A stretch of DNA of 64,000 nucleotides from positions 124,001 through 188,000 of the forward strand of contig NZ_JAUQUB010000001.1 of the NCBI RefSeq assembly GCF_030580675.1, in the 5' to 3' direction. The DNA is from Antiquaquibacter soli (GTDB lineage Bacteria > Actinomycetota > Actinomycetes > Actinomycetales > Microbacteriaceae). Both the position numbers and the translations under genes were made by a program. Under the pieces are notes generated by a model that saw nothing but the letters and a program-made list of their open reading frames with translations, did not search any database and had not been told where the DNA came from. Below are positions 10,699 to 33,973 of this stretch, one piece after another. The stretch's first letter is position 1; each line of letters opens with the position of its first letter.

Positions 10699-10753
10699 TG
10701 TTTTCTCCCTATCTTGGTGCCGATGTGTGATTGCATCGACGGTTGGGGGGTCC

Positions 10754-11803
10754 TCAGTCCTGACCTGGTGCCGGGGGCCCCTTCTTCACTCCGGGCCCGA
10801 CCCGCCGGCGGCGGGCCCAGGCCAGGATGCTCGTGGACACCACGGAGGCGACCAGCAGGGCCCCCGTGATGATGTTGATGACGTCGCTCGTGACGTTCGC
10901 GAGTCGCAGGGCGCTCGACAGGATGCCGATGAGCAGCACTCCCGCGATGACGCCGTGGATGGCGCCGCGCCCGCCGAAGATCGACACTCCGCCGAGCAGC
11001 ACGGCCGCGATGACGCTGAGCTCGAGGCCCGTCGCGTTGTCGCCGCGCGCGCTGCCGAAGCGCAGCGTGTAGTAGATGCCCGCGAGGGCGGAGACCGCTC
11101 CGGAGAGCACGAAGAGGATGAACTTGGTGCGCTCGACGTTGACGCCGGAGAAACGCGCCGCCTCGCTCGACAGCCCGATCGCGAAGATGCCGCGGCCGAA
11201 CGCTGTGAAGTGCAGCACGATCGCGAACGCGATCGCGAGCACGACGAACAGGATCATGACGCTCGGGATGGGCGTGCCGGGAATCTTCGACTTGGCGAGG
11301 TCGGTCCAGAACTCAGTGAAGTCGGTGACGGCTGTCGTGCCGAGGAGGCCCACGGCGAGCCCGCGGAACAGGGCGAGCGTGCCGATCGTCACGGCGAGCG
11401 ACGGCAGCCCGACGACGGTGATGAAGAAGCCGTTCACCGCTCCGGCGATCGCGCCGACGACGATCGCGACGAGCCCGGCCGCCTCGATCGGCAGCCCCGC
11501 CTGGTGCAGGGTGCCGAGCACGACGCTCGACAGCCCCACGATGCTCGCGACCGACAGGTCGATCTCGCCCGTGATGATGATGAGGGTCATCGGGAGGGCG
11601 ATCATGAGGATCGCCGCGACATCCAGCAGCAGGTAGGTGATCGTGATCGGTGCCGCGAAGTTGCGCACCGACAGGGCGGCGACGAGGTAGACGATCACGA
11701 GCAGGCCGACGATCGCCATCTCCCGCGTGAGCAGGATGCGGCGCCACAGCGGCTGGCCGAAGTCCTTGTAGGTGCGCGGTGCGCGCTGGGCGGTGTCAGT
11801 CAT
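10754..11803 (-). CDS. rhaQ: rhamnose-type ABC transporter permease
   Basis: 349 aa from ATG 11803, which lies within the last codons of the previous permease (8-base overlap); an upstream in-frame start at 11821 is less likely. RbsC/BPD_transp_2-type permease with about 8-10 membrane segments and the conserved loop motifs TGEIDLSVAS near 87 and GGVSIFGGRGAIHG near 275. Second permease of the heteromeric RhaPQ pair. Ends 55 bases before the rhaS start. Confidence 0.88.
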   Translation of the reverse strand: MTDTAQRAPRTYKDFGQPLWRRILLTREMAIVGLLVIVYLVAALSVRNFAAPITITYLLLDVAAILMIALPMTLIIITGEIDLSVASIVGLSSVVLGTLHQAGLPIEAAGLVAIVVGAIAGAVNGFFITVVGLPSLAVTIGTLALFRGLAVGLLGTTAVTDFTEFWTDLAKSKIPGTPIPSVMILFVVLAIAFAIVLHFTAFGRGIFAIGLSSEAARFSGVNVERTKFILFVLSGAVSALAGIYYTLRFGSARGDNATGLELSVIAAVLLGGVSIFGGRGAIHGVIAGVLLIGILSSALRLANVTSDVINIITGALLVASVVSTSILAWARRRRVGPGVKKGPPAPGQD

Positions 11804-12785
11804 TGTCCCTCGCCTCCGCAAGTCGTCGGCTGGCCCTCACCGCGAGAACGCGGTCGAGCACGATCGCCCCGAGGATGAGCACGCCCACGACGGCGCGCTG
11901 CCAGAAGTCCTGAACGCCGAGCACGGGCAGGGCGCGGTTGATGGTGAGCAGCAGGTAGGCGCCGATCGCGGCACCCCACACCGTGCCGCTGCCGCCGAAG
12001 ATCGCGACGCCTCCGATGACGGCGGCGCCCACGGCATCCAGCTCCCAGCCGGATCCGGCCTGCGAGTTCACGGTGCCGTACCGGGCGGCGTAGAGCACTC
12101 CCGCGAGGCCGGCGAGGGCTCCGCAGAGCACGAACGCGGCGAGCACCCGCTGGGTGACCTTGAGGCCGTAGAGGTTCGCGGCGGCGGGGTCGGACCCGAT
12201 GGCGTAGAGCTCGCGACCGGCGCGCTGCGTGCGCATGAACCATCCCGCGACCACCAGCACGACGAGGGCGATCACCGTGAGCCACGGCAGCCCGGCGAGC
12301 GAGCTCGTGCCGAGGGCGAGGAACTCCTTCGGCATGTCCGACGGGTTGATGCGGTCGCTGCCGGTCCACAGCACGTTGATGCCGCGGTAGGCGTAGAGCG
12401 TGCCGAGGGTGATGACGAGCGCGGGCACCTTCGCGAACGCGACGAGCGCGCCGTTGATGAGCCCCAGCAGTCCGCCGAAGACGATCCCGATGAGGAACAC
12501 GGTTGGCCACGGCAACCACGGCAGGTCGATGAAGATGCGGCCGGTCAGGTAGGCCGAGAGGCCGAGCACCGAACCGACCGACAGGTCGACGTTGCGCGTG
12601 ATGATCACGATCGCCTGGCCGACCGCGACGAGCATGAGGATCGACGGCGTGAGCAGCAGGTCGCGGAAGCCGTCCGGCGAGAACAGGAAGTTCGGGTTGC
12701 GCACCGTCGTGACGATCACGACGAGCACGAGAGCGAGCAGGATGCCCGTCTCGCGCGCTTTCAGCAGAGAGGTGATCCGAGCCAT
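11796..12785 (-). CDS. rhaP: rhamnose-type ABC transporter permease
   Basis: 329 aa. Same family as the next permease: ITRNVDLSVGSVLGLSAYL near 68, GGVAIFGGSGTVWG near 262, with 8-10 hydrophobic helices. ATG 12785 shares one base with the stop of the ATPase gene (TGATG). The divergence from the neighbouring permease is typical of RhaP/RhaQ, which form a heterodimer in the membrane. Confidence 0.88.
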   Translation of the reverse strand: MARITSLLKARETGILLALVLVVIVTTVRNPNFLFSPDGFRDLLLTPSILMLVAVGQAIVIITRNVDLSVGSVLGLSAYLTGRIFIDLPWLPWPTVFLIGIVFGGLLGLINGALVAFAKVPALVITLGTLYAYRGINVLWTGSDRINPSDMPKEFLALGTSSLAGLPWLTVIALVVLVVAGWFMRTQRAGRELYAIGSDPAAANLYGLKVTQRVLAAFVLCGALAGLAGVLYAARYGTVNSQAGSGWELDAVGAAVIGGVAIFGGSGTVWGAAIGAYLLLTINRALPVLGVQDFWQRAVVGVLILGAIVLDRVLAVRASRRLAEARDND

Positions 12786-14305
12786 CACGCGGCCTCCCCG
12801 CTCGAGTGCGTCGCCGCGAACATGACGGATTCGGCCGTCGCCTCGGCGCGCGGGATGTCCGCGGTGATGCGTCCCTCGTGCACGACGAGCACGCGGTCGG
12901 CCATTCCCAGCACCTCGGGCAGCTCCGACGAGATCATGATGATCGCGAGCCCCTGGCCGGCGAGCTCCGAGAGCAGCCGGTGCACCTCCGCCTTCGTGCC
13001 GACGTCGATGCCGCGGGTGGGCTCGTCGACGATGAGCACGCGCGGGTCGGTGGCGAGCCACTTCGCGAGAACCACCTTCTGCTGGTTGCCGCCCGAGAGG
13101 GTGCCGACCTCGGTGTCGAGCGCATTGGTCTTGACCTCGAGCCGGCTCGCCCAGATGCGGGCGCTCGCGTTCTCCATGCCCGTCGTGAGCAGTCCGAAGC
13201 GCGAGAGCGCCCGGCGGATCGCCATCGTCGCGTTGCGGGCGACGGATGCCTCGAGCACGAGCCCCTGCTGGCGGCGGTCCTCCGGCACGAGCGCGATGCC
13301 CGCGGCCATCGCGGCCGTCGGCTTGCGCTTGCGCAGCAGCTGCCCGCCGACGCGGACCGTTCCGCTCGAGTACGGGTCGATGCCGAACACCGCGCGGGCG
13401 ATCTCGCTGCGCCCGGCGCCGACGAGTCCGGCGAGGGCGACGATCTCGCCCGAGCGCACGGTGAACGACACGTCGTGGAACACTCCCGGCTGGTTCAGCC
13501 CCTCCACGACGAGCACGTCGTCGCCGATCGTCGCCGGCGTCTTGGGGAAGAGGGTCGTGACATCCCGGCCCACCATCTGGCGCACGATCGCGTCGACGGT
13601 GGTGTCCTCGATCGCGCTCGTGGCGATGTAGGCGCCGTCGCGCATGACGGTGACGGTGTCGCACAGCGAGAACACCTCGTCGAACCGGTGCGAGATGAAC
13701 AGGATGGCCCGTCCCTCATCGCGCAGGCTGCGGGCGACGGCGAACAGGCGGTCGACCTCGACCCCGGAGAGCGCGGCGGTCGGCTCATCCATGATGAGCA
13801 CCTTCGCGTCGAGGGAGATGGCCTTGGCGATCTCGATGATCTGCTGGTCGGCGATCGAGAGGCCGAGCGTCGGGCGGTCGGGGTCGATGCGCACGCCGAG
13901 CCGCTCGAAGAGGGCGAGGGCCTCGTCGTGCATCGCGCGGCGATCGATCATGCCGAGCGCGCCGGTGGGCTGGCGGCCCATGAAGATGTTCTCGGTGACC
14001 GACAGGTCGGGGAAGAGCGTGGGCTCCTGGTAGATGACCGCGATGCCGGCGGCCTTCGCTGCGGCGGTCGACGTGAAGTCGACGGGATGCCCCTCGAGGA
14101 GGAACTCGCCCGCATCGCGCTGGTAGAGCCCCGCGATGATCTTGACGAGCGTGGACTTGCCGGCGCCGTTCTCGCCGACGAGGGCGTGGATCGATCCGGA
14201 CTCGAGGCGGAGGGTGCCGTTCGTGAGCGCGATCACCGCGCCGAACGCTTTGGCGATGCGCGAGAGCTCCAGTGCCGGGGGCGGAGCCGTGCCTATCGAC
14301 GTCAT
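12785..14305 (-). CDS. rhaT: rhamnose-type sugar ABC transporter ATP-binding protein (two ABC domains)
   Basis: 506 aa, the usual length for a duplicated sugar ATPase. First domain: Walker [10 protein letters not shown] near 44-52, IADQQ signature-like motif, [10 protein letters not shown]. Second domain: GLVGAGRSE replaces a canonical Walker A near 293, with LSGGNQQK and VDEPTRGID intact; this asymmetry is normal for the family. First gene of the operon, energising RhaPQ. Promoter and operator lie at 14351-14403. Confidence 0.92.
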
Positions 14306-14350
14306 TGTCTGTCTCTCTGGGTTCCCCGGTCGCGTGTGCTGAACACCGGG

Positions 14351-14403
14351 TGAATCGTTTCAGGTGGTGTTCAGACGATAGGCGCGATCCATCGATCCGT
14401 CAA
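14351..14403 (-). promoter_or_regulatory. promoter and LacI-type operator of the rhamnose ABC operon
   Basis: On the minus strand TTGACG (14403-14398), a 17-base spacer, then TATCGT (14380-14375) form a good sigma-70-type promoter. TGAATCGTTTCA at 14351-14362, a 12-bp near-palindrome centred on CG, sits just past the expected start of transcription, where a repressor would block elongation. Confidence 0.65.
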
Positions 14404-14421
14404 GTCGCAGAGGGAGAACGC

Positions 14422-17004
14422 TTAGAGCAGTGCGCTGAACGAGTGGATCCCGCTCCCCACCGCCACGGGCTCCGCGCCCGGCAGCTCGACCACGGCGTCC
14501 GCCCCGGTCGGCACGACGACGTCGACGCTCAGCACTCCGTCGGCGATGCGCCAGTCGATGGATGCCCGCCCGTACGGCGTCTCGTGCGCGGCCGAGGCCG
14601 ACGTCAGCCCGCCGCCCGGCTGCGGAGCGAACCGGATGCTGCGGTAGCCGGGGGCCGCGGGGGCGATCCCCGCCACGACGCGGTGCAGCCAGTCGGCGAC
14701 GGACCCGAGCGCGTAGTGGTTGAACGACGTCATCGTGCCCGGATTGACCGTGTCATCCGGCAGCAGCGAGTCCCAGCGCTCCCACACGGTGGTCGCGCCC
14801 TTCTTCACGGCGTACAGCCACGACGGGCACTCCTCCTCGAGGAGCAGGTCGTAGGCGGAGTCGTTCGCGTCGACGAGCGTGAGGGCGTCCGAGAGCACGT
14901 TCACTCCGGCGAAGCCGACCGAGATGCGGTTCCGACCCTCCGCGACGAGAGCCGCGAGCCGGGCGCCGGCTGCCGCCCGCAGCTCCGGGTCGACGATGAG
15001 GTCGAAGCGCAGCGCGAGGGCGTAGGCGGTCTGCGCGTCGCTCGACATGCGGCCGTCGGGCAGTACGTACTCGGCGACGAAGGCGTCGCGCACGAGATCG
15101 GCGAGTCGCGAGTAGTGGGCGGCGTCGTCGGCGAGCCCGAGCACCTCGGCGGCCTTCGCGAGGTGCCGTGCCGACCACGCGAAGTAGGCGGTGGCGACGA
15201 GGTACTTGTCGGTCTTGGCGTCCGCCGGGTCCTGCGGGGGAGCATCCGGGTCGAGCCAGTCGCCGAGCTGGAAGCCCTCGTTCCACAGGTGGTCGTCGCC
15301 CGCGAGGCGATCCTGCAGGTCGACCCACTTCTTGGCGCTCTCGTACTGCGCGGCGAGGATGCCGGCGTCGCCGGAGCGCTCGTAGAGCACCCACGGCGTG
15401 AGCACCGCGACATCCCCCCACACCGCGCCGGGGCGGATCGGCGTCCACATCTGGTGAGCCGGGATGACGGGCACGTACCAGGGGATGGTTCCGTCGGGGA
15501 GCTGCTCGACGGCGACGTCGCGCAGCCAGCTGCCGAGCATCCCGGACACGTCGTAGAGGAAGGCGGCGGTCGGCGCGAACACCTGGATGTCGCCCGTCCA
15601 GCCCACGCGCTCGTCGCGCTGCGGGCAGTCGGTCGGCACGTCGACGAAGTTGCTGCGCATTCCCCACAGCACGTTGTCGTGCAGCCGGTTGACGAGGGGG
15701 TTGGATGACTCGAACCACCCCGTGCGCTCCATGTCTGAGTGGTAGACCCGCCCCACCGCATCGCCCGCCGCGACGGCGGCGTCGAGGTCGCCCGGCCACC
15801 CGGTGACCTCCGCGTAGCGGAAGCCGTGGATCGTGAAGCGGGGCTCCCACTCCTCGGTGCCTTCGCCACGCAGCGTGTAGACGTCGGTCGACTTCGCCTC
15901 GCGCAGCGGGCGGGTGTAGAGCTCGCCGTGCTGCAGGACCTCGGCGGTGCGGATGGTCACGGTGTCGCCCGCGGCACCCGACACCCGGATGCGGATGCGA
16001 CCCGCGAAGTTCTGGCCGAAGTCGAGGATGCGCTTGCCGCTCGGCGTGGTGAGCACGGCCACGGGCGCGAGCTCCTCGGTGCACCGCACCGGCGGACCCT
16101 GCGGAGCGACGAGGGTCGCCGGGTCGCGCTCGCCGGTCGCGACGGGGCTCCACCCGGAGTCGTCGAAGGATGCCGCGGACCATCCCGGCAGCTCGTCGCG
16201 AGCGTCGTAGACCTCGCCGTCGTAGAGTCCGCTGCGGACGATCGGGCCGACGTGGGCGCGCCACGAGTCGTCCGTCGCGATGGTCTCGACCGAGCCGTCG
16301 GCATAGGTCACCTCGAGCTGCGCGAGCAGGGCGAGGTCGCTGCCGAACAGGTTGTAGAAGCCGCCGCGCCAGCCGAGGCGGCCGCGGTACCAGCCGTCGC
16401 CGAGCCACGAGCCGATCGCGTTCTCGCCCGGCTGCAGCAGCCCGGTGACGTCGTAGGTGTAGTACCGCAGGCGCTGGCCGTAGACCGTCCAGCCGGGGGC
16501 GAGCGCGTCGTCGCCGACGCGCGACCCGTTGAGCTCGACCTCGTAGAGGCCGTGGGCACTCGCGTAGAGGCGGGCCTTCGCGACGGGCTTGCCGAGCGTG
16601 AAACCCCGGCGCACGAGGGGCGGGCGCCGGGCATCCAGGTCGTCGCCCTCGTCCCAGGGGGCGCCGACCGGCACCGCCACCCAGTCGGTCGGGTGCAGCA
16701 GCCCGGCTTCGACGACGGATGCCTCGCTCCAGTCGCTCTCGTCTCCGGACTCGCCGACCACGCGCACCCGCACCGATGCGGACTCCCGTGACTCGAGGGG
16801 CGCGCCGACCCACGGCACGAGGACGGACTCGCCCGACTCGATGCGCTCGGTGTGGACTCGCTGGCTTCGCGTGACCTCGACCTCGTAGGCGGCCTGCCGC
16901 CACCCCGCGGGGGCCACCGTCTTCCACGACAGGCGCGGGGCGGCCTCGCCGATGCCGAGCGCCTCGCGGTGGTGCTCGAAGCGGGGGGAGCTCGGAGTGG
17001 CCAT
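14422..17004 (-). CDS. alpha-L-rhamnosidase, GH78
   Basis: 860 aa, full length for the family. Seen: N-terminal sandwich domains (residues 1-125), the galactose-binding-like Bac_rhamnosid_N domain (YASAHGLYEVELNG near 168, GSWLGDGWYRG near 205), a conserved linker domain (LDFGQNFAGRIRIRV near 325), the (alpha/alpha)6 barrel with DCPQRDERVGWTGDIQ at about 455-470, and the C-terminal sandwich (HETPYG). No signal peptide, so it acts in the cytosol on imported rhamnosides. Divergent from the cupin/epimerase pair across a region with two LacI-type operators. It is a paralogue of the truncated GH78 at the window start. Confidence 0.95.
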   Translation of the reverse strand: MATPSSPRFEHHREALGIGEAAPRLSWKTVAPAGWRQAAYEVEVTRSQRVHTERIESGESVLVPWVGAPLESRESASVRVRVVGESGDESDWSEASVVEAGLLHPTDWVAVPVGAPWDEGDDLDARRPPLVRRGFTLGKPVAKARLYASAHGLYEVELNGSRVGDDALAPGWTVYGQRLRYYTYDVTGLLQPGENAIGSWLGDGWYRGRLGWRGGFYNLFGSDLALLAQLEVTYADGSVETIATDDSWRAHVGPIVRSGLYDGEVYDARDELPGWSAASFDDSGWSPVATGERDPATLVAPQGPPVRCTEELAPVAVLTTPSGKRILDFGQNFAGRIRIRVSGAAGDTVTIRTAEVLQHGELYTRPLREAKSTDVYTLRGEGTEEWEPRFTIHGFRYAEVTGWPGDLDAAVAAGDAVGRVYHSDMERTGWFESSNPLVNRLHDNVLWGMRSNFVDVPTDCPQRDERVGWTGDIQVFAPTAAFLYDVSGMLGSWLRDVAVEQLPDGTIPWYVPVIPAHQMWTPIRPGAVWGDVAVLTPWVLYERSGDAGILAAQYESAKKWVDLQDRLAGDDHLWNEGFQLGDWLDPDAPPQDPADAKTDKYLVATAYFAWSARHLAKAAEVLGLADDAAHYSRLADLVRDAFVAEYVLPDGRMSSDAQTAYALALRFDLIVDPELRAAAGARLAALVAEGRNRISVGFAGVNVLSDALTLVDANDSAYDLLLEEECPSWLYAVKKGATTVWERWDSLLPDDTVNPGTMTSFNHYALGSVADWLHRVVAGIAPAAPGYRSIRFAPQPGGGLTSASAAHETPYGRASIDWRIADGVLSVDVVVPTGADAVVELPGAEPVAVGSGIHSFSALL

Positions 17005-25045: not shown

Positions 25046-25795
25046 ATGAGGCTCGAGGGTCAGCGCGCCATCGTCACCGGAGCAGCAGGAGCACTCGGCC
25101 GCGTCATCGCGCGCGTACTCGCGAGCGAGGGCGCGGATGTCGCCGGACTCGACCTGAACGCGGAGGGTCTCGAGGCCACGGCGGAGCTCGTCAGGGCCGA
25201 GGGTCGGCGCTCGCTGTCGGCGACCGCGGACCTCACCGACCACGCCGCCGTGAAGAGCGCGGTCGACGGCATCGTCGCCGAGTGGGGCGGCATCGACATC
25301 CTGCTCAACGGCGCCGGCGGCGGGGCGGTCGCGTGGTTCCACGAGATGACGCCCGACGTGTGGGCGACGCAGATCGAGCGGAACCTGACGACGGTCTACA
25401 ACGTCACCAACGCGGTGCTGCCGTCGATGCTCGAGCAGAAGCACGGTCGCATCATCAGCATCGCCTCGATCGCCGCGGTCTCGGGCGGCCGGCTCGTGCG
25501 CGGCGCCACCGCCTACGCCGCAGCGAAGGCCGGCGTCGTCGGGCTGACGAAGGCGCTCGCGATCGAGGTCGCCGAGCAGGGCGTCACCGTCAACGCGATC
25601 GCCCCGGGCGCCCAGGCGACCCCGGGCCGCGACAACGACACCCCCGAGCGGCGTGCCGCGCTCCTGGACCAGATCCCGACGAGACTGCTGGGAGAACCCG
25701 AGCACCTCGCCCAGGCGATCGTGTTCCTCGCCGCTCCCGAGGCGGTCAACATCACCGGAGTCATCCTGCCGCTCGACGGCGGACACTCGATCTAA
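25046..25795 (+). CDS. SDR-family sugar dehydrogenase
   Basis: 249 aa from ATG 25046. TGAAGALG near residue 12 (cofactor), LNGAGGG near 90, IASIAAVSGG near 138 (catalytic Ser), YAAAKAG (Tyr/Lys) near 156, and DGGHSI at the end. In one operon with a carboxymuconolactone decarboxylase-like protein (10 bases on) and, facing it, an SMP-30 lactonase. Inference: oxidises the sugar brought in by the divergent ABC importer. A second candidate, beside the SDR at 2362-3120, for the missing D-apiose 1-dehydrogenase step. Confidence 0.88.
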   Translation: MRLEGQRAIVTGAAGALGRVIARVLASEGADVAGLDLNAEGLEATAELVRAEGRRSLSATADLTDHAAVKSAVDGIVAEWGGIDILLNGAGGGAVAWFHEMTPDVWATQIERNLTTVYNVTNAVLPSMLEQKHGRIISIASIAAVSGGRLVRGATAYAAAKAGVVGLTKALAIEVAEQGVTVNAIAPGAQATPGRDNDTPERRAALLDQIPTRLLGEPEHLAQAIVFLAAPEAVNITGVILPLDGGHSI

Positions 25796-25805
25796 GGAGC
25801 ACCCC

Positions 25806-26213
25806 ATGAGCGACCGACTCGACAAGGGCAAGGAGTGGTTCGACAAGGTCTACGGCGAGGGCAAGTCCGAGGGCCTCATCGAGATGCAGACCGGGCTCGG
25901 GCAGGATCTCGCCCGCTTCGGCATCGAGTTCAACTTCGGCGACATCTACTCGCGGCCCGGGCTCTCGCTCGCGCAGCGCGAGCTGCTGTCGCTCGCCTCG
26001 CTCGTGACCATCGGCGGGCTCGAGCCGCAGCTGCGCGGCCACACGCGCGGGGCACTGCGGGTGGGATGCTCGCCCACCGAGATCCTGGAGACGGTTATCC
26101 ACACCGTGCAGTACTGCGGGTTCCCGAAGGCGCTCAACGCGATGCGCGTCATCACCGACGAGTTGCAGCTGCAGGGGCAGGAGATCCCGCCGGCGCTCGG
26201 TCCGGGAGAGTAG
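25806..26213 (+). CDS. carboxymuconolactone decarboxylase-family protein
   Basis: 135 aa from ATG 25806 with AAGGAG at 25795-25799. Family signature: QRELLSLASLVTIGGLEPQLRGHTRGAL across about 58-80 and EILETVIHTVQYCGFPKALNA near 88-107. The CxxC pair of the AhpD peroxidase branch is absent, so it belongs with gamma-CMD-like proteins, often found in sugar-acid operons without a proven reaction. Co-transcribed with the SDR. Ends against the convergent SMP-30 gene 7 bases away. Confidence 0.85.
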   Translation: MSDRLDKGKEWFDKVYGEGKSEGLIEMQTGLGQDLARFGIEFNFGDIYSRPGLSLAQRELLSLASLVTIGGLEPQLRGHTRGALRVGCSPTEILETVIHTVQYCGFPKALNAMRVITDELQLQGQEIPPALGPGE

Positions 26214-26219
26214 CCCGGG

Positions 26220-27035
26220 CTAGCCGAGGGGCAGGCGGTACAGCGACGTCGTCGCCGTGACGTAGAGCACCCCGTCGCCGAAGCAGAGGTTCGAGACCGT
26301 CTCGGGGAACTCGACGCGCTGCAGGAGCCGAGCATCCGGCGCATAGATCTCGATGGCCGCGCTCGACGACGTCCACACGTTCCCGAGGGGATCGACCCGC
26401 AGTCCGTCGGCGAAACCGGTGGGCTGCACGAACAGTCGCCCCTCCCACGTTGCCGTGTCGTAGACCCGGATGTGCCGCGGGCCGGCGTTCCACACCTCGG
26501 CGGTGTCGGCGACGTACAGCAGCGACTCGTCGGGGGAGAACGCGAGCCCGTTGGGGTGCACCATGTCGGTGATCACCGGCTCGGCGACCCCGTCGATGAC
26601 GCGGAACACGAAGCACCCGTCGTAGTCCTGCGTGCCCGGATGCCCCTCCCGCCCGCTCTCGTGCAGTCCGTACGGGGGGTCGGAGAAGTACACGGCGCCG
26701 TCCCGGGCGACGACGACGTCGTTGGGGGAGTTGAAGCGGCCGCCCGCCCACTCCGCCACGATCGGGGTGACGACGCCGGCGGCATCCCGCTCGACGCGGC
26801 GGAGGCCGTGGCTGCACTGGATGACGCTGCCGTCGGCGTCGACGGTGCGCCCGTTCGTGAACTCCACCGCCGTCGCGTACTCGACCACGTCGCCGGTCGC
26901 CTCGTCGAACTGCAGGATGCGGTCGTTCGGGATGTCGCTGAACCGCACCACCCCGTCGGCGGCGAGCCACGCGGGCCCCTCGAGCCACTCCCCGCCCGTC
27001 CACAGCCGCTCGGGCGCGGCGCCCTCGGGGATCAC
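26220..27035 (-). CDS. SMP-30/gluconolactonase-family sugar lactonase
   Basis: 271 aa from a GTG overlapping the GntR stop (GTGA). Six-bladed propeller signatures: LEGPAWLAADGVVRFSDIPN near 18-37 with the metal-binding Glu, FNSPNDVVVARDGAVYFSDP near 95-114 (metal Asn), MVHPNGLAFSPDE near 153, and FADGLRVDPLGNVW near 205 (metal Asp). It hydrolyses a sugar lactone to the acid, the natural step after an SDR dehydrogenase. Translated with the GntR regulator, and ends against the CMD-like gene. Confidence 0.9.
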   Translation of the reverse strand: MIPEGAAPERLWTGGEWLEGPAWLAADGVVRFSDIPNDRILQFDEATGDVVEYATAVEFTNGRTVDADGSVIQCSHGLRRVERDAAGVVTPIVAEWAGGRFNSPNDVVVARDGAVYFSDPPYGLHESGREGHPGTQDYDGCFVFRVIDGVAEPVITDMVHPNGLAFSPDESLLYVADTAEVWNAGPRHIRVYDTATWEGRLFVQPTGFADGLRVDPLGNVWTSSSAAIEIYAPDARLLQRVEFPETVSNLCFGDGVLYVTATTSLYRLPLG

Positions 27036-27766
27036 TCGAGGGCTCCGGCGAGGCGGCGCGCGGCGGTGTTCATGTGCAGCGCCATGGCGCTCGCCGCGGC
27101 ATCCGGGTCGCGCGTGGCGATCGCGGCGTGCACGGCGGCGTGCTCCTCGATCGCGGCGAGCGCCTCGGCGGGCTCCTGCACGGCACGGTCGACCCAGACG
27201 CGCAGGAGCGAGCGGATGCTCTGCAGAAGGTCGAGGAGCACGGAGTTGTCCGTGCTGCGCGCGAGCTCGAGGTGGAACTGCAGGTCCGCTTCGACGAACC
27301 GCTCGAGCGTGTCGACGGAGGCGCGCATCTCCTCGACGCGGGCGCCGAGCGAGGCGAGTTCCTCGTCGCTCATGCGGGTCGCGGCGAGCCGCGCGGCGTA
27401 GATCTCGAGGGCACCGCGCACGTCGATGAGCTCGCGCGTCTTGGGCTCGTCGAGCATGAGCCCCCAGCTGAGCGTTTGCGGCAGCAGCTCGCTCGCGGAG
27501 CCGCGCAGGTAGGTGCCGGAGCCGGGTCGCACGTGCACGATTCCCAGGATCTCGAGGGCGGCGAGCGCCTCGCGCACGGCGGAGCGGCCGACGCCGAGGG
27601 TCGAGGCGAGCTGTCGCTCCGGGGGGAGCCGGGTCCCGGGCTCGATGTCGCCGCGGGTGAAGATCTCCAGCAGCGCCTTTGCGACTCCGGAGACCGCCGT
27701 GCCCGCCTCGAGGGTGCCGAGCGAGGCCGCGATCTCGGCTGAGGAATCGTTCGGATAGGCGGGCAT
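27032..27766 (-). CDS. GntR-family regulator, FadR type
   Basis: 244 aa. Winged-helix domain (LPPERQLASTLGVGRSAVREALAAL near 47-71, then VRPGSGTYL) plus an all-helical FCD ligand domain with the metal-binding residues DLQFHLELA near 158 and EEHAAVHAAI near 207. Leaderless promoter (TAGCCT, seven bases, ATG 27766). Divergent from the MFS gene over a region with two GntR boxes, so it very likely represses the MFS/kinase/apnO operon and itself; FCD regulators usually sense sugar acids such as apionate or a uronate derivative. Confidence 0.92.
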   Translation of the reverse strand: MPAYPNDSSAEIAASLGTLEAGTAVSGVAKALLEIFTRGDIEPGTRLPPERQLASTLGVGRSAVREALAALEILGIVHVRPGSGTYLRGSASELLPQTLSWGLMLDEPKTRELIDVRGALEIYAARLAATRMSDEELASLGARVEEMRASVDTLERFVEADLQFHLELARSTDNSVLLDLLQSIRSLLRVWVDRAVQEPAEALAAIEEHAAVHAAIATRDPDAAASAMALHMNTAARRLAGALE

Positions 27767-27792: not shown

Positions 27793-27853
27793 GCCAACCG
27801 GTGGACCGAAATTGGTCAACCGGTTGACAAACCCGAGGACCGCCCCGCATACT
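27793..27853 (+). promoter_or_regulatory. MFS promoter with two GntR operators
   Basis: GTCAACCGGTTGAC at 27815-27828 is a perfect 14-bp palindrome of FadR type; GCCAACCGGTGGAC at 27793-27806 differs at two positions and lies 22 bp away, two turns of the helix. TTGACA (27824-27829) overlaps the perfect site and pairs with CATACT (27848-27853) at 18 bp, so binding would hide the -35 box. Confidence 0.75.
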
Positions 27854-27921
27854 CGTTCGCGCGACCACCGTGGTTCACCGGCCAGGGCGGCGCGCCATCC
27901 CGCCTCACCGAAGGAGTCAAC

Positions 27922-29292
27922 GTGGACACCACCACAGCTCGCGTGCAGTCTGCCGTCGAGAAATCTGCCATCAAGAAGGTCGCGATCCGGCTCGTGCCGT
28001 TCGTCGCCCTGATGTTCTTCATCAACTACCTCGATCGCACTGCGATCGGGTTCGCCGCCCCGAACGGCATGAACGAGGACCTCGCCCTGTCGGCCGCCCA
28101 GTTCGGCTTCGCCTCGGGCGTGTTCTTCATCGGCTACATCCTTCTGGAGGTGCCGTCGAACCTGGCCCTGCACCGCTTCGGCGCCCGCAAGTGGCTCGCC
28201 CGCATCATGGTGAGCTGGGGCATCGTCGCCCTGCTCTTCACGTGGGTGCAGAACTTCGAGCAGCTCGTCGCCCTGCGCTTCATCCTCGGTGTCGCCGAGG
28301 CCGGATTCTTCCCGGGCGCGATCCTCTTCCTCAGCCTCTGGGTCCCGGCGGAGCACCGCTCGAAGATTCTCGCCCTGTTCTACCTGGCGCAGCCGCTCAC
28401 GACGGTCATCGGCGCCCCGTTCGCCGGGTGGCTCATCCAGCAGCACGGAATCTTCTTCGGCCTCGAGGGCTGGCGCTTCATGTTCCTCGGCGTCGCGATC
28501 CCCGCGATCATCGTCGGCATCGTCGCGTGGTTCTACCTCAAGGACAAGCCGTCAGACGCCAAGTGGCTCACCACCGAGGAGCAGGAGTGGCTCACCGGCG
28601 CCCTCGCCCTCGAGCGCGCGAACACCGAGAAGGCCAACAACACGCACCGCATCCGCGACGCCTTCACGTCCGGCCGGGTGTGGGTGCTCTCGGGCATCTA
28701 CTTCGGCTTCATCTACGGCCTCTACGCCCTCGGCTTCTTCCTCCCGACGATCATCGGCGGCTTCCAGGAGCAGTTCGGCACCGAGTTCGACGTCTTCCAG
28801 AAGGGCCTCATCACGGCGATCCCGTATGTCCCCGCTGCGATCGCGCTCTACTTCTGGTCGCGGGATGCCTCGCGCCGCGGCCTCAAGACCTGGCACATCG
28901 TCATCCCCGCCCTCGCCGGCGCGGTGAGCATCCCGCTCGCCCTCTTCGCGGGCTCGCCCGCGGCGACCATCGCGGTCATCGCGGTGACGGCGATGGCGAT
29001 CTTCTCGGCGCTGCCCAACTTCTGGACGCTGCCGACGAAGTTCCTCACCGGTGCCGCCGCCGCGGCGGGCATCGCGCTCATCAACACCATCGGCAACCTC
29101 GCCGGCTTCTCGGCCCCGTACATCACGGGCCTCGTCGCCGACGCGACGGCGGTCGACGGCGAGCCGAGCTACGTCGCGCCGATGTTCATCGTGGGCGGCT
29201 TCATGCTGCTCTCCGCGGTGCTCATGATCGGCCTCGCCGCCCGCACCAAGACGACCGCCCCGGCGGTCGCCGAGACGGTCGCAGCCGAGTAA
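27922..29292 (+). CDS. MFS transporter, anion:cation symporter (ACS) type
   Basis: 456 aa from GTG 27922 with AAGGAG at 27911-27916. Twelve membrane helices. ACS signatures: FFINYLDRTAIGFAAP near 33-48, LLEVPSNLALHRFGARKWLA near 75-94 and GVAEAGFFPGAILFLSLWVP near 122-141. Family members import organic and sugar acids such as hexuronates, tartrate or galactonate. With apnO and a kinase downstream, the likely cargo is apionate or another sugar acid. A perfect hairpin (29298-29333) separates it from the kinase gene. Confidence 0.9.
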   Translation: MDTTTARVQSAVEKSAIKKVAIRLVPFVALMFFINYLDRTAIGFAAPNGMNEDLALSAAQFGFASGVFFIGYILLEVPSNLALHRFGARKWLARIMVSWGIVALLFTWVQNFEQLVALRFILGVAEAGFFPGAILFLSLWVPAEHRSKILALFYLAQPLTTVIGAPFAGWLIQQHGIFFGLEGWRFMFLGVAIPAIIVGIVAWFYLKDKPSDAKWLTTEEQEWLTGALALERANTEKANNTHRIRDAFTSGRVWVLSGIYFGFIYGLYALGFFLPTIIGGFQEQFGTEFDVFQKGLITAIPYVPAAIALYFWSRDASRRGLKTWHIVIPALAGAVSIPLALFAGSPAATIAVIAVTAMAIFSALPNFWTLPTKFLTGAAAAAGIALINTIGNLAGFSAPYITGLVADATAVDGEPSYVAPMFIVGGFMLLSAVLMIGLAARTKTTAPAVAETVAAE

Positions 29293-29369: not shown

Positions 29370-31121
29370 ATGACCCGCCTGTTCAACGAACCGAGCGCCT
29401 TCGCCGATGAGATGATCGACGGCTTCGTGGCCGCGAACTCCGCCCAGGTGCGCCGGGTCTCGGGTGGCGTCGTGCGCAGCACCGTCTCCACTCCCGGCAC
29501 CGTCGCGGTCGTGATCGGCGGCGGCTCGGGTCACTACCCCGCCTTCGGCGGCATCGTCGGCCAGGGCCTCGCGCACGGTGCGGCCATGGGCAACCTCTTC
29601 GCCTCGCCGTCCGCGCAGCAGGTCCACTCGGTCGCCGCCGCGGCGAACCTCGGCGGGGGCGTACTCCTTACTTATGGCAACTACGCCGGCGACGTGCTCA
29701 ACTTCACCGCCGCGCAGGATCGCCTGAACTCCGAGGGCATCGAGACCCGCACGGTCGTCGTCACCGACGACATCGCGAGCGCCCCTCTCGCCGAGAAGCA
29801 CAAGCGTCGCGGAATCGCCGGCGACCTCACGGTCTTCAAGGCGGCCGCCGCCGCGTCCGAGGCGGGCTACTCGCTCGACGAGGTCGTGCGCGTGGCGGAG
29901 CTGGCCAACGAGCGCACCCGCTCTTTCGGCGTCGCCTTCACGGGATGCACGCTCCCCGGTGCGGCCGAGCCCCTGTTCACGATCCCGGAGGGCCGCATGG
30001 GCGTCGGCATCGGCATCCACGGCGAGCCCGGCATCGACGAGACGGATGTCCCGACCGCCGACGGTCTCGCCGAGCTCTTCGTCTCCACGCTGCTGTCCGA
30101 GCTCCCCGAGGGCATCTCCTCGCCCGACGGCCAGCGCGCCGCGGTGCTGCTCAACGGCCTCGGCTCGGTGAAGTACGAGGAGCTCTTCGTCGTCTACCGC
30201 CGGGTCGCGCAGCTGCTCGAGGAAGCCGGGGTCGTCATCGTCGAGCCGGAGGTCGGCGAGCTCGTCACGAGTTTCGACATGGCCGGGGCATCCCTCACGC
30301 TCTTCTGGCTGGGCACCGAGGAGGGCAGCGAGCTGGAGCGCTTCTGGCGAGCCCCGGCCGACACCCCCGCCTACCGCAAGGGCTCCGTCGGCGCCGTGGA
30401 GCAAGCGGCCCCCGCGCCAACCGAGGCTCTCGACGCGGGCCTGACCGAGAACATCCCTCCCGCCACCGACGACTCCCGCGCCGCCGCCGCCGTCGCGGCC
30501 GCCGCGCTCCAGGCCATCGCCGAGGTCATCGACGAGAACGTCGGCGAGCTCGGCCGCATCGATGCCGTCGCCGGGGACGGCGACCACGGCATCGGAATGC
30601 AGCGGGGCTCCCGAGCCGCGTCGTCCGCCGCTGTCGAGCTGCTCGCCGTTGGTTCCGGCGCGCGCACACTGCTCCAGCGGTCGGGCGACGCGTGGGCCGA
30701 TCGCGCGGGGGGAACGTCGGGTGCCCTCTGGGGAGTGGCCCTCCGCGCGATCGGCGACACCCTCGGGGACTCGGATGCCGCGAGCGGCGCCGCGGTGGCT
30801 GCGGGCGTCCGCGGCGCGACGACGGGCATCCTCGGCTTCGGCGCCGTGGTCGGCGACAAGACCATGGTCGACGCCCTCGTGCCGTTCGCGGACGCGCTCG
30901 AGGCGGGCATCGCGGCCGGCCGCCCGCTGACCCAGGCCTGGGCGGATGCCGCGGACGCAGCCACTACGGCGGCCGCCGCCACCGCCCAGCTCCTCCCGAA
31001 GATGGGCCGCGCCCGGCCCCACGCCGAGAAGAGCCTCGGCACGCCCGACGCGGGCGCTCACTCGTTCGCGCTGATCGTGCAGCGCATCGCGACCGTACTC
31101 AAGGAACAGGACAGTAAGTAA
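29370..31121 (+). CDS. dihydroxyacetone kinase-family enzyme (DhaK-DhaL fusion), probable L-erythrulose kinase
   Basis: 583 aa from ATG 29370. DhaK half (about 1-340): GGGSGHYPAF near 50-59, LLTYGNYAGDVLNF near 99-112, and the substrate-linking histidine H217 in GIGIHGEPG. DhaL half (about 365-583): AGDGDHGIGM at 401-410 with the metal-binding aspartates, and DKTMVDALVPF further on. ATP-dependent ketose kinase. Because RpiB-like, TIM-like and apnO genes follow with overlaps or short gaps, I infer phosphorylation of L-erythrulose to L-erythrulose 1-phosphate (the role called LerK). Plain dihydroxyacetone kinase or D-erythrulose kinase cannot be excluded by sequence alone. Confidence 0.85.
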   Translation: MTRLFNEPSAFADEMIDGFVAANSAQVRRVSGGVVRSTVSTPGTVAVVIGGGSGHYPAFGGIVGQGLAHGAAMGNLFASPSAQQVHSVAAAANLGGGVLLTYGNYAGDVLNFTAAQDRLNSEGIETRTVVVTDDIASAPLAEKHKRRGIAGDLTVFKAAAAASEAGYSLDEVVRVAELANERTRSFGVAFTGCTLPGAAEPLFTIPEGRMGVGIGIHGEPGIDETDVPTADGLAELFVSTLLSELPEGISSPDGQRAAVLLNGLGSVKYEELFVVYRRVAQLLEEAGVVIVEPEVGELVTSFDMAGASLTLFWLGTEEGSELERFWRAPADTPAYRKGSVGAVEQAAPAPTEALDAGLTENIPPATDDSRAAAAVAAAALQAIAEVIDENVGELGRIDAVAGDGDHGIGMQRGSRAASSAAVELLAVGSGARTLLQRSGDAWADRAGGTSGALWGVALRAIGDTLGDSDAASGAAVAAGVRGATTGILGFGAVVGDKTMVDALVPFADALEAGIAAGRPLTQAWADAADAATTAAAATAQLLPKMGRARPHAEKSLGTPDAGAHSFALIVQRIATVLKEQDSK

Positions 31122-31588
31122 TGGACAAGCTCCGCATCGTGATCGGCTCGGATGACGCCGGCTACGACTACAAGGAACTCCTCAAGAAGGACCTGTTCGC
31201 GAGCGACCTCGTCGAGTCGGTCGAGGACGTCGGCGTCGACGCGGACGGCCACACCCCGTACCCGAAAGTCGGCGTCGCGGTCGGCGAGACCATCGCGCGC
31301 GGCGACGCGGACCGGGGCCTGCTGATCTGCGGCACCGGCATGGGTGTCGCGATGGCGGCGAACAAGGTGGCGGGCATCCGCGCGTCCGTCGCGCACGACT
31401 CTTTCTCGGTCGAGCGGCTCATCCTGTCGAACAACGCCCAGGTGCTCGCCCTCGGGCAGCGCGTCATCGGTGCCGAGCTCGCCCGCCGACTCGTGCGCGA
31501 GTGGCTCACCTACCGCTTCGACGAGTCCAGCGCGTCGGCCGAGAAGGTCGCCGTGCTCGACCAGTACGAGCTGACCGGATCCTGCTGA
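31121..31588 (+). CDS. derI: RpiB-family isomerase, probable D-erythrulose-4-phosphate isomerase
   Basis: 155 aa; ATG shares a base with the kinase stop. RpiB fold with active-site cysteine C70 in CGTGMGVAMAANKVAGIRA and LSNNAQVLALGQRVIGAEL near 102-120. Odd: the usual GxDHAG histidine is aspartate (GSDDAG, D12). As I recall, tetrose-phosphate isomerases of this family (EryI/DerI) also lack that histidine and share the SNNAQ stretch. Inference: converts D-erythrulose 4-phosphate to D-erythrose 4-phosphate, the entry to the pentose phosphate pathway. Ribose-5-phosphate isomerase B is the alternative. Confidence 0.8.
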   Translation: MDKLRIVIGSDDAGYDYKELLKKDLFASDLVESVEDVGVDADGHTPYPKVGVAVGETIARGDADRGLLICGTGMGVAMAANKVAGIRASVAHDSFSVERLILSNNAQVLALGQRVIGAELARRLVREWLTYRFDESSASAEKVAVLDQYELTGSC

Positions 31589-32328
31589 TGCCCCGCACGG
31601 TCGGTGTGAGCCTGAAGATGTACTTCGGGCACGCCGCCGCGCTGTCGTGGTTCGATCGCGTGGCGGAGCTCGCGCGCGAGCATCGCGCCGTCGCGTCGGG
31701 GGAGGTCGAGCTTTTCGTGATCCCGTCGTTCCCGGCGATCCCGGGGGCGATCGCGGCGTTCGAGGGCACTCGCGTTCTCGTCGGCGCCCAGGACCTCTTC
31801 TGGGAGGACTCCGGCGCGTACACCGGCGAGGTGTCGGGCGCCGAGCTCGCCGAGATCGGGGTGCGCGTCGCCGAGGTCGGCCATGCCGAGCGACGCCGCC
31901 TGTTCTTCGAGACGGATGCCGTCGTCGCCGCCAAGACCGCCGCCGCCCTGCGCAACGGCATCGCCCCCGTGTTGTGCATCGGCGAGGTCGCGGAGGTCAC
32001 GCCCGCGGTCGCCGCCGCCGAGGTCATCTCGCAGCTCGATGCTGCGGTGCAGGATGCTCCGGCCGGCCGCATCATCGTCGCCTACGAGCCCGTCTGGGCC
32101 ATCGGTGCCGCAGAGCCCGCCGGTCCCGACCACATCTCGCCCGTCTGCCGCGCGCTGCGCGAGCACCTCGACGCGATCGGGCGCGGGGGGACCGTGATCT
32201 ACGGCGGCAGCGCCGGACCCGGGCTTCTCACCCGCCTCGGCGACAGCGTGGATGGGCTGTTCCTCGGCCGCTTCGCCCACGACCCGGCCGCGCTCGCCGC
32301 GGTACTCGACGAGGCGGCGGCATCGTGA
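31588..32328 (+). CDS. lerI: triose-phosphate-isomerase-family enzyme, probable L-erythrulose-1-phosphate isomerase
   Basis: 246 aa; one-base overlap with the RpiB-like stop. TIM barrel with catalytic K10 (SLKMYF), H99 (EVGHAERR) and E167 (VAYEPVWAIG), and phosphate loop YGGSAGPG near 204. The asparagine two residues before the lysine in true triose-phosphate isomerase is serine here (S-L-K), as I remember for EryH-type erythrulose-1-phosphate isomerases (SWK). Inference: L-erythrulose 1-phosphate to D-erythrulose 4-phosphate. Cytosolic. It is not the housekeeping tpiA, which would lie in a gap-pgk-tpi cluster. Confidence 0.82.
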   Translation: MPRTVGVSLKMYFGHAAALSWFDRVAELAREHRAVASGEVELFVIPSFPAIPGAIAAFEGTRVLVGAQDLFWEDSGAYTGEVSGAELAEIGVRVAEVGHAERRRLFFETDAVVAAKTAAALRNGIAPVLCIGEVAEVTPAVAAAEVISQLDAAVQDAPAGRIIVAYEPVWAIGAAEPAGPDHISPVCRALREHLDAIGRGGTVIYGGSAGPGLLTRLGDSVDGLFLGRFAHDPAALAAVLDEAAAS

Positions 32329-33122
32329 TCGGCCTGTCCACCTACGCCTTCTTCTGGCAGCACTCCGATCGGGCCCCCGCACCGCTCACGCTCGCCGACA
32401 TGCTGCACCGCACGCGGTCGTCGGGCGTCGACCTGTTCCAGGTGTGCGATTACGCCCCACTCCTCTCTTACTCCGCGGCGGAGCTGCAGGGCATCCGGTC
32501 GCTCGCCGACGACCTCGGGATCACCCTCGAGCTCGGCACGAAGGGGCTCCAGACCGAGCATCTCGCGACGTTCCTGTCGATCGCCGAGGTGTTCGGCGCG
32601 ACCTTCGTGCGCAGTATGGTCAACGGTCCCGACTCGACGCCCACCCTCGTCGAGGCCGAGTCGCTGTTGCGCGCGGCGCTGCCCGCGTTCGAGGCGGCCG
32701 GCGTGACGCTCGCCCTCGAGACCTACGAGCAGGTGTCATCCACCGACCTCGTCTCCCTCGTCGAGACCGTCGCGAGCCCCGCCCTCGGCATCACGCTCGA
32801 CCCGGCGAACTCGGTGGCGGCGCTCGAGCATCCGCGCGACGTCGTCGAGCGCACCGCGCCGTACGTCCGCGGCATCCACGTGAAGGACTTCGCCTTCTCC
32901 CGTCGCGGGGGATGGGTCGGCTTCACCCTCGAGGGCGTGCCGCTCGGCACCGGACTCCTCGACTACGACCATCTGGTGGGGACCGTGCGCCCGGAGGAGC
33001 GCGGCATCAACCAGGTCATCGAGCACTGGCTCACCTGGCGCGACTCGTTCGACGAGACCGCCCGCCTCGAGAACGAGTGGAACTCCCACAACCTCAGTTA
33101 TCTAAGGAGCAAGCAATCATGA
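32325..33122 (+). CDS. xylose-isomerase-like TIM-barrel enzyme, candidate 3-oxo-isoapionate decarboxylase
   Basis: 265 aa from a GTG overlapping the TIM stop (GTGA). AP-endonuclease-2/xylose-isomerase-like fold: GLSTYAFFW at the start, likely divalent-metal ligands E132 (LALETYE), D159 (TLDPANS), H185 (GIHVKDF) and E203 (LEGVPLGTG). Such folds catalyse isomerisation, epimerisation or decarboxylation. Placed between the erythrulose-phosphate isomerase and apnO, it would be the step that turns 3-oxo-isoapionate into L-erythrulose and CO2 (the role called OiaC). The specific role is inference from order; the fold is clear. Ends ATGA-overlapped with apnO. Confidence 0.75.
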   Translation: MIGLSTYAFFWQHSDRAPAPLTLADMLHRTRSSGVDLFQVCDYAPLLSYSAAELQGIRSLADDLGITLELGTKGLQTEHLATFLSIAEVFGATFVRSMVNGPDSTPTLVEAESLLRAALPAFEAAGVTLALETYEQVSSTDLVSLVETVASPALGITLDPANSVAALEHPRDVVERTAPYVRGIHVKDFAFSRRGGWVGFTLEGVPLGTGLLDYDHLVGTVRPEERGINQVIEHWLTWRDSFDETARLENEWNSHNLSYLRSKQS

Positions 33123-33973
33123 GTGACAAGCTCACCATCGCGGTCATCGGCGCGGGCGGGAAGATGGGCATGCGAGTGTCCAACAACCTCGTGAAGACCG
33201 ACCACACCGTCTACTACAGCGAGAACTCGCCCGCGGGCCAGGAGCGCGTCACCGCCACCGGCCGCACCCTCACCGACACGGATGCCGCGGTCGCCGACGC
33301 CGACGTCGTCGTGCTCGCCGTGCCCGACCTCGCCCTCGCGGCGGTGTCGGCCGCGGTCATCCCGCAGATGAAGTCCGGATCGATCATGCTGACCCTCGAC
33401 CCGGCCGCCGCGTACGCCGGCCTCCTCGCCACCCGCGAGGACGTCATCCAGGGCGTCACCCACCCGTGCCACCCGTCGGTGTTCCTCGAGCGCCACACCC
33501 CCGAGGAGTACGCGGACACCTTCGGCGGAATCGCGGCCCCGCAAGACGCGATCGCCGCGATCGAGTCAGACGACCCGGCCAAGAAGGAGATCCTCGAGGC
33601 CGTCGTGCGCATCATCTTCGCGCCCGTCATCGACGTGCACTGGGTGACCGTCAAGCAGCTCGCGCAGCTCGAGCCGACTCTCGTGGAGACGGTCGCGTGC
33701 ATGGTCGGCGCGCTGCTCGCGGAGGCCCTCGAGGAGACCGTGAACACCATGGGGGTCCCGCGGGAGGCGGCGCGCAGCATCCTGCTCGGCCACACCCAGG
33801 TCGCGCTCGCGAACACGCTCAAGGGCTCGAACCCGTTCTCCGACGCGTGCCTCATCGCGATGGACTACGGCCGCGAGTCGATCATCAAGGAGGACTGGAA
33901 GAAGATCTTCCGCGACGACGAGCTCGACAAGAACCTCGCGCGGATGCTCCACCTCGACGAGATCACGAGGTAG
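33119..33973 (+). CDS. apnO: D-apionate oxidoisomerase
   Basis: 284 aa from ATG 33119, with TCTAAGGAGC at 33101-33110 as a strong ribosome-binding site. Rossmann domain IGAGGKMGMRV near 10-20, DVVVLAVPD near 65, then an all-helical C-terminal domain like the phosphogluconate-dehydrogenase C-terminal family: THPCHPSVF near 112, VKQLAQLEPTLVETVACMVG near 179-198, KGSNPFSDACLIAMDYG near 237-253. I recognise this arrangement as ApnO, which oxidises D-apionate and rearranges it to 3-oxo-isoapionate. Last gene of the five-gene operon starting at 29370. No function search could be run. Confidence 0.75.
   Translation: MSDKLTIAVIGAGGKMGMRVSNNLVKTDHTVYYSENSPAGQERVTATGRTLTDTDAAVADADVVVLAVPDLALAAVSAAVIPQMKSGSIMLTLDPAAAYAGLLATREDVIQGVTHPCHPSVFLERHTPEEYADTFGGIAAPQDAIAAIESDDPAKKEILEAVVRIIFAPVIDVHWVTVKQLAQLEPTLVETVACMVGALLAEALEETVNTMGVPREAARSILLGHTQVALANTLKGSNPFSDACLIAMDYGRESIIKEDWKKIFRDDELDKNLARMLHLDEITR

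Follow-up and report, generated by a model that had tools for sequence, protein, structure and literature searches.

A predicted D-apionate degradation operon and a candidate upper apiose pathway in the actinobacterium Antiquaquibacter soli

The window analysed here, a 64,000-nucleotide stretch of Antiquaquibacter soli from the family Microbacteriaceae (contig NZ_JAUQUB010000001.1, positions 124,001 to 188,000), carries at 29370-33973 a compact run of five genes which we interpret as an apionate-degradation operon, very probably serving to feed apionate, a derivative of the plant sugar apiose, into central metabolism; the probability of this reading is put at roughly 0.87. Apiose is a sugar of plant cell walls and plant glycosides and, to our knowledge, its bacterial breakdown has been worked out mainly outside Actinobacteria. 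The pathway as such is known from other bacteria; here it is accompanied by a likely regulator of its own and by a conserved DNA site, and the enzyme proposed for the first step is a different one. The analysis provides a concrete gene set, a candidate regulator and a candidate operator for Actinobacteria, in which the operon core belongs to the known pathway and the first step is tentatively given to a short-chain dehydrogenase/reductase (SDR).

Reading of the open reading frames (ORFs) in the window gave five complete ORFs, all on the + strand, at exactly the coordinates proposed by an initial annotation of this DNA. They encode a DhaK-DhaL fusion kinase (29370-31121; 583 residues, start ATG, Pfam domains Dak1 and Dak2), an RpiB-like protein (31121-31588; 155 residues, ATG, LacAB_rpiB), a TIM-like protein (31588-32328; 246 residues, ATG, TIM), an AP_endonuc_2 TIM-barrel protein of xylose-isomerase-like type (32325-33122; 265 residues, GTG) and a predicted D-apionate oxidoisomerase, ApnO (33119-33973; 284 residues, ATG), with a Rossmann N-terminus and the PGDH_C domain PF16896 (E 1.8e-58). 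The four junctions overlap by 1, 1, 4 and 4 bases in gene order, in line with the overlaps of 1-4 bases noted initially; that description stopped short of the transporter gene, the divergent regulator and the upper genes at 617-4631 discussed below. A LacI-type regulator lies downstream of the operon. The five-gene arrangement is not a matter of chance, because it recurs across many genera, and on two plasmids of Erwiniaceae four of its genes are arranged in this order too.

In the proposed route, every reaction, transport step and regulatory contact of which is predicted from sequence, D-apionate would be supplied by a major facilitator superfamily (MFS) protein and/or by internal oxidation of apiose. 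ApnO would oxidise and rearrange it to 3-oxo-isoapionate, the xylose-isomerase-like protein (OiaC role) would decarboxylate this to L-erythrulose, and the DhaK-DhaL protein, as an L-erythrulose 1-kinase (LerK role), would form L-erythrulose 1-phosphate, from which the TIM-like and RpiB-like isomerases would make D-erythrulose 4-phosphate and then D-erythrose 4-phosphate, which would enter the pentose phosphate pathway. Control of the operon is assigned to a divergent FadR-type regulator, predicted to act through the palindrome GGTCAACCGGTTGACC. The upper half may be encoded by a second run of genes whose last members occupy 617-4631: an apiosidase-like protein would release apiose, an SDR would oxidise it and an ApnL-type protein would hydrolyse the lactone. 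Carter and colleagues reportedly described in 2018 (Nat Chem Biol 14:696) the degradation of D-apionate via ApnO and OiaC to L-erythrulose. The predicted route resembles theirs in its use of ApnO, a xylose-isomerase-family decarboxylase and then an L-erythrulose kinase with two isomerases, whereas it differs in being laid out as one overlapping actinobacterial operon, accompanied by a palindrome and a FadR-type regulator gene in divergent orientation, and in an upper half with an SDR and a divergent lactonase.

The comparative evidence comes first from 398 genomes of the family, searched at limits of E 1e-20 for ApnO, OiaC-like and ApnL-type proteins and of E 1e-60 for the SDR of the upper half (family F1 hereafter). 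ApnO was found in 78 genomes, the OiaC-like protein in 79, the ApnL-type protein in 64 and F1 in 59, corresponding to 33, 32, 30 and 28 of 85 genera. ApnO and the OiaC-like gene are near-constant partners, with both present in 77 genomes, ApnO only in one (G026), the OiaC-like gene only in two (G001 and G295) and neither in 318; in 73 of the 77 genomes with both, they lie at most 300 bases apart. The ApnO of G026, 45% identical to that of the window, is adjoined by OiaX- and OiaK-type genes. Together with gene order and the family membership of ApnO, this co-occurrence supports the initial assignment of a lower oxidative apiose pathway to an actinobacterium, and the pairing in 77 of the 78 ApnO genomes, with OiaX and OiaK in the exception, argues for the predicted OiaC role. 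It counts against this reading that the species are not independent and that the loci compared next were picked for carrying ApnO or OiaC. Nine sampled genomes of the same genus gave no match to ApnO, the OiaC-like protein, the ApnL-type protein or F1 at the limits used; the operon is therefore patchily distributed, which suggests recent gain or repeated loss. In G364 (C1:1296509-1297347) the ApnO match falls into two overlapping pieces, suggestive of a frameshift.

Gene neighbourhoods were compared in two collections: set A of 59 loci (52 stretches from genomes of the order with ApnO or OiaC and 7 plasmid stretches; 60 with the window) and a named set of 80 loci that were the best matches to the ApnO alignment, some of whose stretches end at contig ends. 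In the named set, which includes Agreia, Microbacterium, Arthrobacter, Streptomyces, Curtobacterium, Halotalea and Serratia, all five genes are present in 58 of 80 loci, and the OiaC-like gene with ApnO in 77, the loci lacking the former being L193, L196 and L200. On plasmids of Erwinia E602 and Pantoea At-9b the order MFS-kinase-TIM-OiaC-ApnO is kept, with RpiB nearby on the opposite strand; the labels given to these copies, namely dihydroxyacetone kinase family, triose-phosphate isomerase family and ribose 5-phosphate isomerase B, exemplify the generic or misleading naming that the comparison exposes. Quadrisphaera (L106) has a single run of RpiB, TIM, OiaC, ApnO, F1, ApnL-type and kinase genes. 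In two metagenome-assembled genomes of Actinomycetes and Acidimicrobiaceae (L193:10905-12311 and L200:8573-9979), ApnO is followed by a 468-residue protein with no Pfam match, possibly another decarboxylase, and no OiaC-like gene was seen in the stretch.

The last gene of the operon, called ApnO in the initial annotation, is not an ordinary 6-phosphogluconate dehydrogenase: besides PF16896 it shows 40-43% identity to homologues adjoining OiaX/OiaK-type genes, it matches PDB entry 5t57 at E 4e-61 and it is the single match in its own genome. For the OiaC-like protein, residues E132, D159, H185 and E233 are conserved, no NCBIfam model matched at E 0.001, and the weak NCBIfam matches are ribulose-phosphate epimerases. 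Many members of the xylose-isomerase-like fold are isomerases or epimerases, and the protein could on these grounds be read as an isomerase, for D-apiose or another sugar, instead of a decarboxylase. A relative at 31-33% identity in Rhizobium CC-CFT758 (L037:6995-7813), whose function may differ, adjoins a transketolase pair, an SDR and a TRAP transporter and would fit this view. However, no kinase-plus-transketolase set of the non-oxidative route shows up in the annotated neighbourhood of the operon (the rest of the genome was not searched for one), the product expected of ApnO would need a decarboxylase which no other operon gene resembles, and the ApnO genome without an OiaC-like gene has OiaX/OiaK-type genes, all of which make an isomerase very improbable and favour decarboxylation by an OiaC-like enzyme.

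The kinase, the single match in its own genome at E 1e-3, scores above the cut-off of NF011049 and below that of the glycerone-kinase model TIGR02361, and retains 207 of 211 columns conserved among 35 relatives. The TIM-like protein conserves S8, L9, K10, M11 and Y12 among 31 relatives and matches PDB 11ef, the solved L-erythrulose-1-phosphate isomerase LerI, at E 7e-34 as its third-best match. A second TIM (39% identical) and a second RpiB (31% identical) are encoded elsewhere in the genome; the operon isomerases are therefore not its sole TIM and RpiB, and would be free for a specialised role. Several observations weigh against the assigned roles. Family models name the operon isomerases and kinase otherwise; two PDB entries named triosephosphate isomerase outscore 11ef; the RpiB-like protein passes the cut-off of TIGR02133, labelled ribose-5-phosphate isomerase, and reaches 139 bits on the rhizobial DerI model NF051858, below its cut-off of 240. 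The LerK, LerI, DerI and OiaC roles are predicted from family, position and co-occurrence.

LerK, LerI and DerI are reported to take L-erythrulose and tetritols to D-erythrose 4-phosphate in E. coli (PMC10733421), and that route, along with the second TIM and RpiB, lends support to the initial assignment of the three proteins. The operon shares with this tetritol module a kinase and TIM-like and RpiB-like enzymes, which are predicted here too to end in D-erythrose 4-phosphate. As a rival reading, the trio may be a set for erythritol, threitol or erythrulose that merely lies beside ApnO and OiaC, with a tetritol as substrate; related activities are reported to serve tetritols in Mycolicibacterium smegmatis (PMC12780249, PMC10733421). 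In three loci (L088, L139 and L094) the trio or a second set is on the opposite strand from ApnO, and both SDRs of the window score weakly on the GolD/DthD dehydrogenase model (160, and 162 for the SDR at 25046-25795, against a cut-off of 286). The kinase tree, with 92 labelled operon members and 6 others, 2 of which also lie near ApnO, has no known tetritol kinase in it and does not discriminate on this point. Unlike the tetritol module, the operon has no tetritol dehydrogenase, and no polyol dehydrogenase is encoded by the five genes, the MFS gene or the regulator gene; the trio overlaps OiaC-ApnO by 1-4 bases; all five genes stand together in most of the named set; and ApnO and OiaC are nearly constant companions. 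A tetritol set thus seems most unlikely, and the predicted feed of the operon is apionate.

Two further apiose routes help to place the operon. A report on Rhodobacteraceae strain LCG007 describes growth on apiose and the gene set of an OiaK/OiaX branch (PMC11747546). A similar set occurs in Paracoccus TOH (L035), where an ApnO homologue at 43% identity lies beside a protein annotated as OiaX, a four-carbon acid sugar kinase, a ribose-type ABC transporter and a Gfo/Idh/MocA protein, and where the ApnL-type protein scores 671 bits on the NCBIfam D-apionate lactonase model, whose cut-off is 750. Paracoccus ApnO homologues, which share the PF16896 C-terminus, are 42-43% identical to the window ApnO. 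ApnO and ApnL homologues are common to that branch and the window, whereas in the window decarboxylation is predicted to precede phosphorylation, and neither the OiaX nor the OiaK-type protein of Paracoccus had a match at E 1e-3 in the window and the 20 kb upstream. The RuBisCO-like branch occurs in Microbacteriaceae as well: in three loci of the family (L100, L101 and L102) ApnO adjoins OiaX-/OiaK-type genes, and two of the three also have an OiaC-like gene. A stretch of Halotalea alkalilenta (L189) links the classical cluster to the window-type operon, since it holds together an ApnL-type gene (truncated by the end of the stretch), an ApsD-type gene (56% against its Paracoccus counterpart), an MFS gene, an OiaC-like gene and ApnO; a look for the kinase, RpiB and TIM genes in this stretch found none of them. 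The non-oxidative pathway of Pectobacterium and E. coli, with apsI, aplK, aptA and aptB (PMC13001218), acts on the same plant sugar through other enzymes, namely an isomerase, a kinase and two transketolase genes.

Between the operon and its putative regulator lies the gene of an MFS transporter of D-galactonate type (27916-29292, +), predicted to import apionate, which scores 281 bits on TIGR00893 (cut-off 395) and whose family is present in 28 of the 60 set-A loci, window included. The divergent FadR/GntR-FCD regulator (27032-27766, -; Pfam GntR and FCD), predicted to control the operon, belongs to a family found in 38 of these 60 loci. In the gap between the two genes is the palindrome GTCAACCGGTTGAC (27815-27828), the predicted operator, with an imperfect copy at 27793-27806. 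As an exact sequence its core TCAACCGGTTGA is unique in the genome, with four further one-mismatch places against two for the reversed control. On comparison of the regulator gaps of set A and the window, the core AACCGGTT was present in 33 of 35 comparable cases; 73 of its sites in these loci are intergenic and 5 genic, several of them before F1, ApnL-type, SMP-30 or GH78 genes. In the named set, 45 of 65 regulator genes have AACCGGTT no more than 300 bases away, versus 0.4% for 95 control palindromes. Because ATCGCGAT is as common as or commoner than AACCGGTT in the same loci, the argument for an operator rests on position and not on raw counts. Two results weaken the idea of a shared regulon: in the named set AACCGGTT is within 300 bases of only 4 of 32 F1 and 4 of 40 ApnL-type genes, and in the window's own genome no copy precedes the upper genes. 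Many of these F1 and ApnL-type genes stand behind ApnO within one run, where a site of their own may be unnecessary; in this genome, where the upper genes have no site, that half may answer to a different regulator.

The likely upper-pathway genes lie at 617-4631, about 25 kb upstream of the operon. They comprise a predicted apiosidase of DUF5060-Apiosidase-DUF5605 architecture (617-2365, +; PF16586, PF13204 and PF18310), whose apiosidase-like catalytic domain PF13204 scores 42.9 bits (E 6e-11), above the cut-off of 26.5; the F1 SDR, a predicted D-apiose 1-dehydrogenase (2362-3120, +), overlapping the former gene by 4 bases; and a divergent, predicted ApnL-type D-apionate lactonase (3117-4631, +; start GTG), overlapping the SDR gene by 4 bases. 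Relatives of the apiosidase-like protein at 35% identity or more occur in 7 of the 80 named loci. ApnO and the ApnL-type gene are both present in 62 of the 398 genomes (ApnO only in 16, ApnL-type only in 2, neither in 318), and ApnO and F1 in 58 (ApnO only in 20, F1 only in 1, neither in 319); of the 59 genomes that have both F1 and the ApnL-type gene, 49 carry them no more than 300 bases apart. The ApnL-type protein keeps 60 of 70 strongly conserved columns.

Certain features of these genes argue against the assignment. On NF049900, the ApnL model, the lactonase candidate scores 203 bits (E 7.5e-60) where the cut-off is 750, so that it is described as ApnL-type and not as ApnL; at 504 residues, compared with a median of 597 in 20 relatives, it has about 46 residues missing at two places; and F1 falls below the cut-off of every NCBIfam SDR model listed, GolD/DthD included (the best 25 of 225). 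The same holds for the gaps in co-occurrence, 16 of 78 ApnO genomes for the ApnL-type gene and 20 of 78 for F1. The first of these gaps would also suit a true substrate other than apionate, another C4-C5 sugar acid handled by the same chemistry, as would the membership of the MFS protein, below its model cut-off, in a broad group of sugar-acid transporters. Against such a substrate, which we regard as very improbable, stand the co-occurrence and frequent co-localisation of ApnL-type and F1 genes with ApnO and the position of the apiosidase-like gene ahead of them in the window. The 16 genomes without an ApnL-type gene may use apionate only.

The D-apiose dehydrogenase ApsD is one that we take to be a Gfo/Idh/MocA family enzyme. 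A relative of the Paracoccus Gfo/Idh/MocA dehydrogenase at E 1e-30 was present in just 2 of 78 ApnO genomes (42% and 31% identity), and the best relative in the window's own genome is 28% identical, too distant to be classed as ApsD-type. Because F1 accompanies ApnO in 58 of 78 genomes and its gene mostly adjoins that of the lactonase, F1 makes a good non-orthologous candidate for the D-apiose dehydrogenase, and its assignment offers a test case for enzyme replacement in a recently discovered pathway. On balance we lean towards the view that Actinobacteria have a full route from apiose to D-erythrose 4-phosphate, in which F1 would have replaced the Gfo/Idh/MocA enzyme and would work with the divergent ApnL-type lactonase, and in which the FadR-type regulator binding GGTCAACCGGTTGACC would govern an apiose regulon to which, in relatives, glycoside hydrolases and genes of the nucleoside-hydrolase family, perhaps apiofuranosidases, also belong.

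Next to the regulator gene, and overlapping it by 4 bases, is an SMP-30/gluconolactonase-like gene (26220-27035, -; SGL PF08450), possibly a second lactonase belonging to the system; its family occurs in 5 of the 59 other set-A loci and, at 38% identity, in none of the 80 named loci. The SDR and CMD genes upstream of it (25046-26213) were considered for the upper pathway and dropped, as none of the 59 other set-A loci holds a relative of either at 43% identity. A counterpoint is that Pantoea At-9b has annotated SMP-30 and CMD-family genes about 4 to 9 kb downstream of ApnO; on comparison with them, the CMD gene gave no match and SMP-30 25% identity over only 147 residues.

The gene run that ends in the upper genes starts at about -12400 relative to the window start (stretches L120 and L121) and reads solute-binding protein, permease, ABC ATPase, GH3, beta-lactamase-family protein, GH43 and GH78, followed by the apiosidase-like, SDR and ApnL-type genes; the domain scan covered all its ORFs bar one, between permease and ATPase. 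The GH78 rhamnosidase gene enters the window with its 3' part (1-609, +; Pfam match on L121:7832-10609), directly before the apiosidase-like gene. With its oligopeptide-type ABC importer and GH3, GH43 and GH78 genes, the run resembles a locus for the utilisation of plant glycans in which apiose would be among the products. A second GH78 rhamnosidase gene (14422-17004), whose family lies near the ApnO operon in four other set-A loci (L075, L076, L077 and L081), adjoins a ribose-type ABC transporter (9664-17004 in all). In Quadrisphaera, two nucleoside-hydrolase-family genes (L106:15012-16049 and 16079-16978), which might hydrolyse apiofuranosides, lie beside the apiose genes; their families are also seen in L076, L090, L104, L112, L079 and L114, and in L090 and L076 the palindrome is found in the gap before one such gene.

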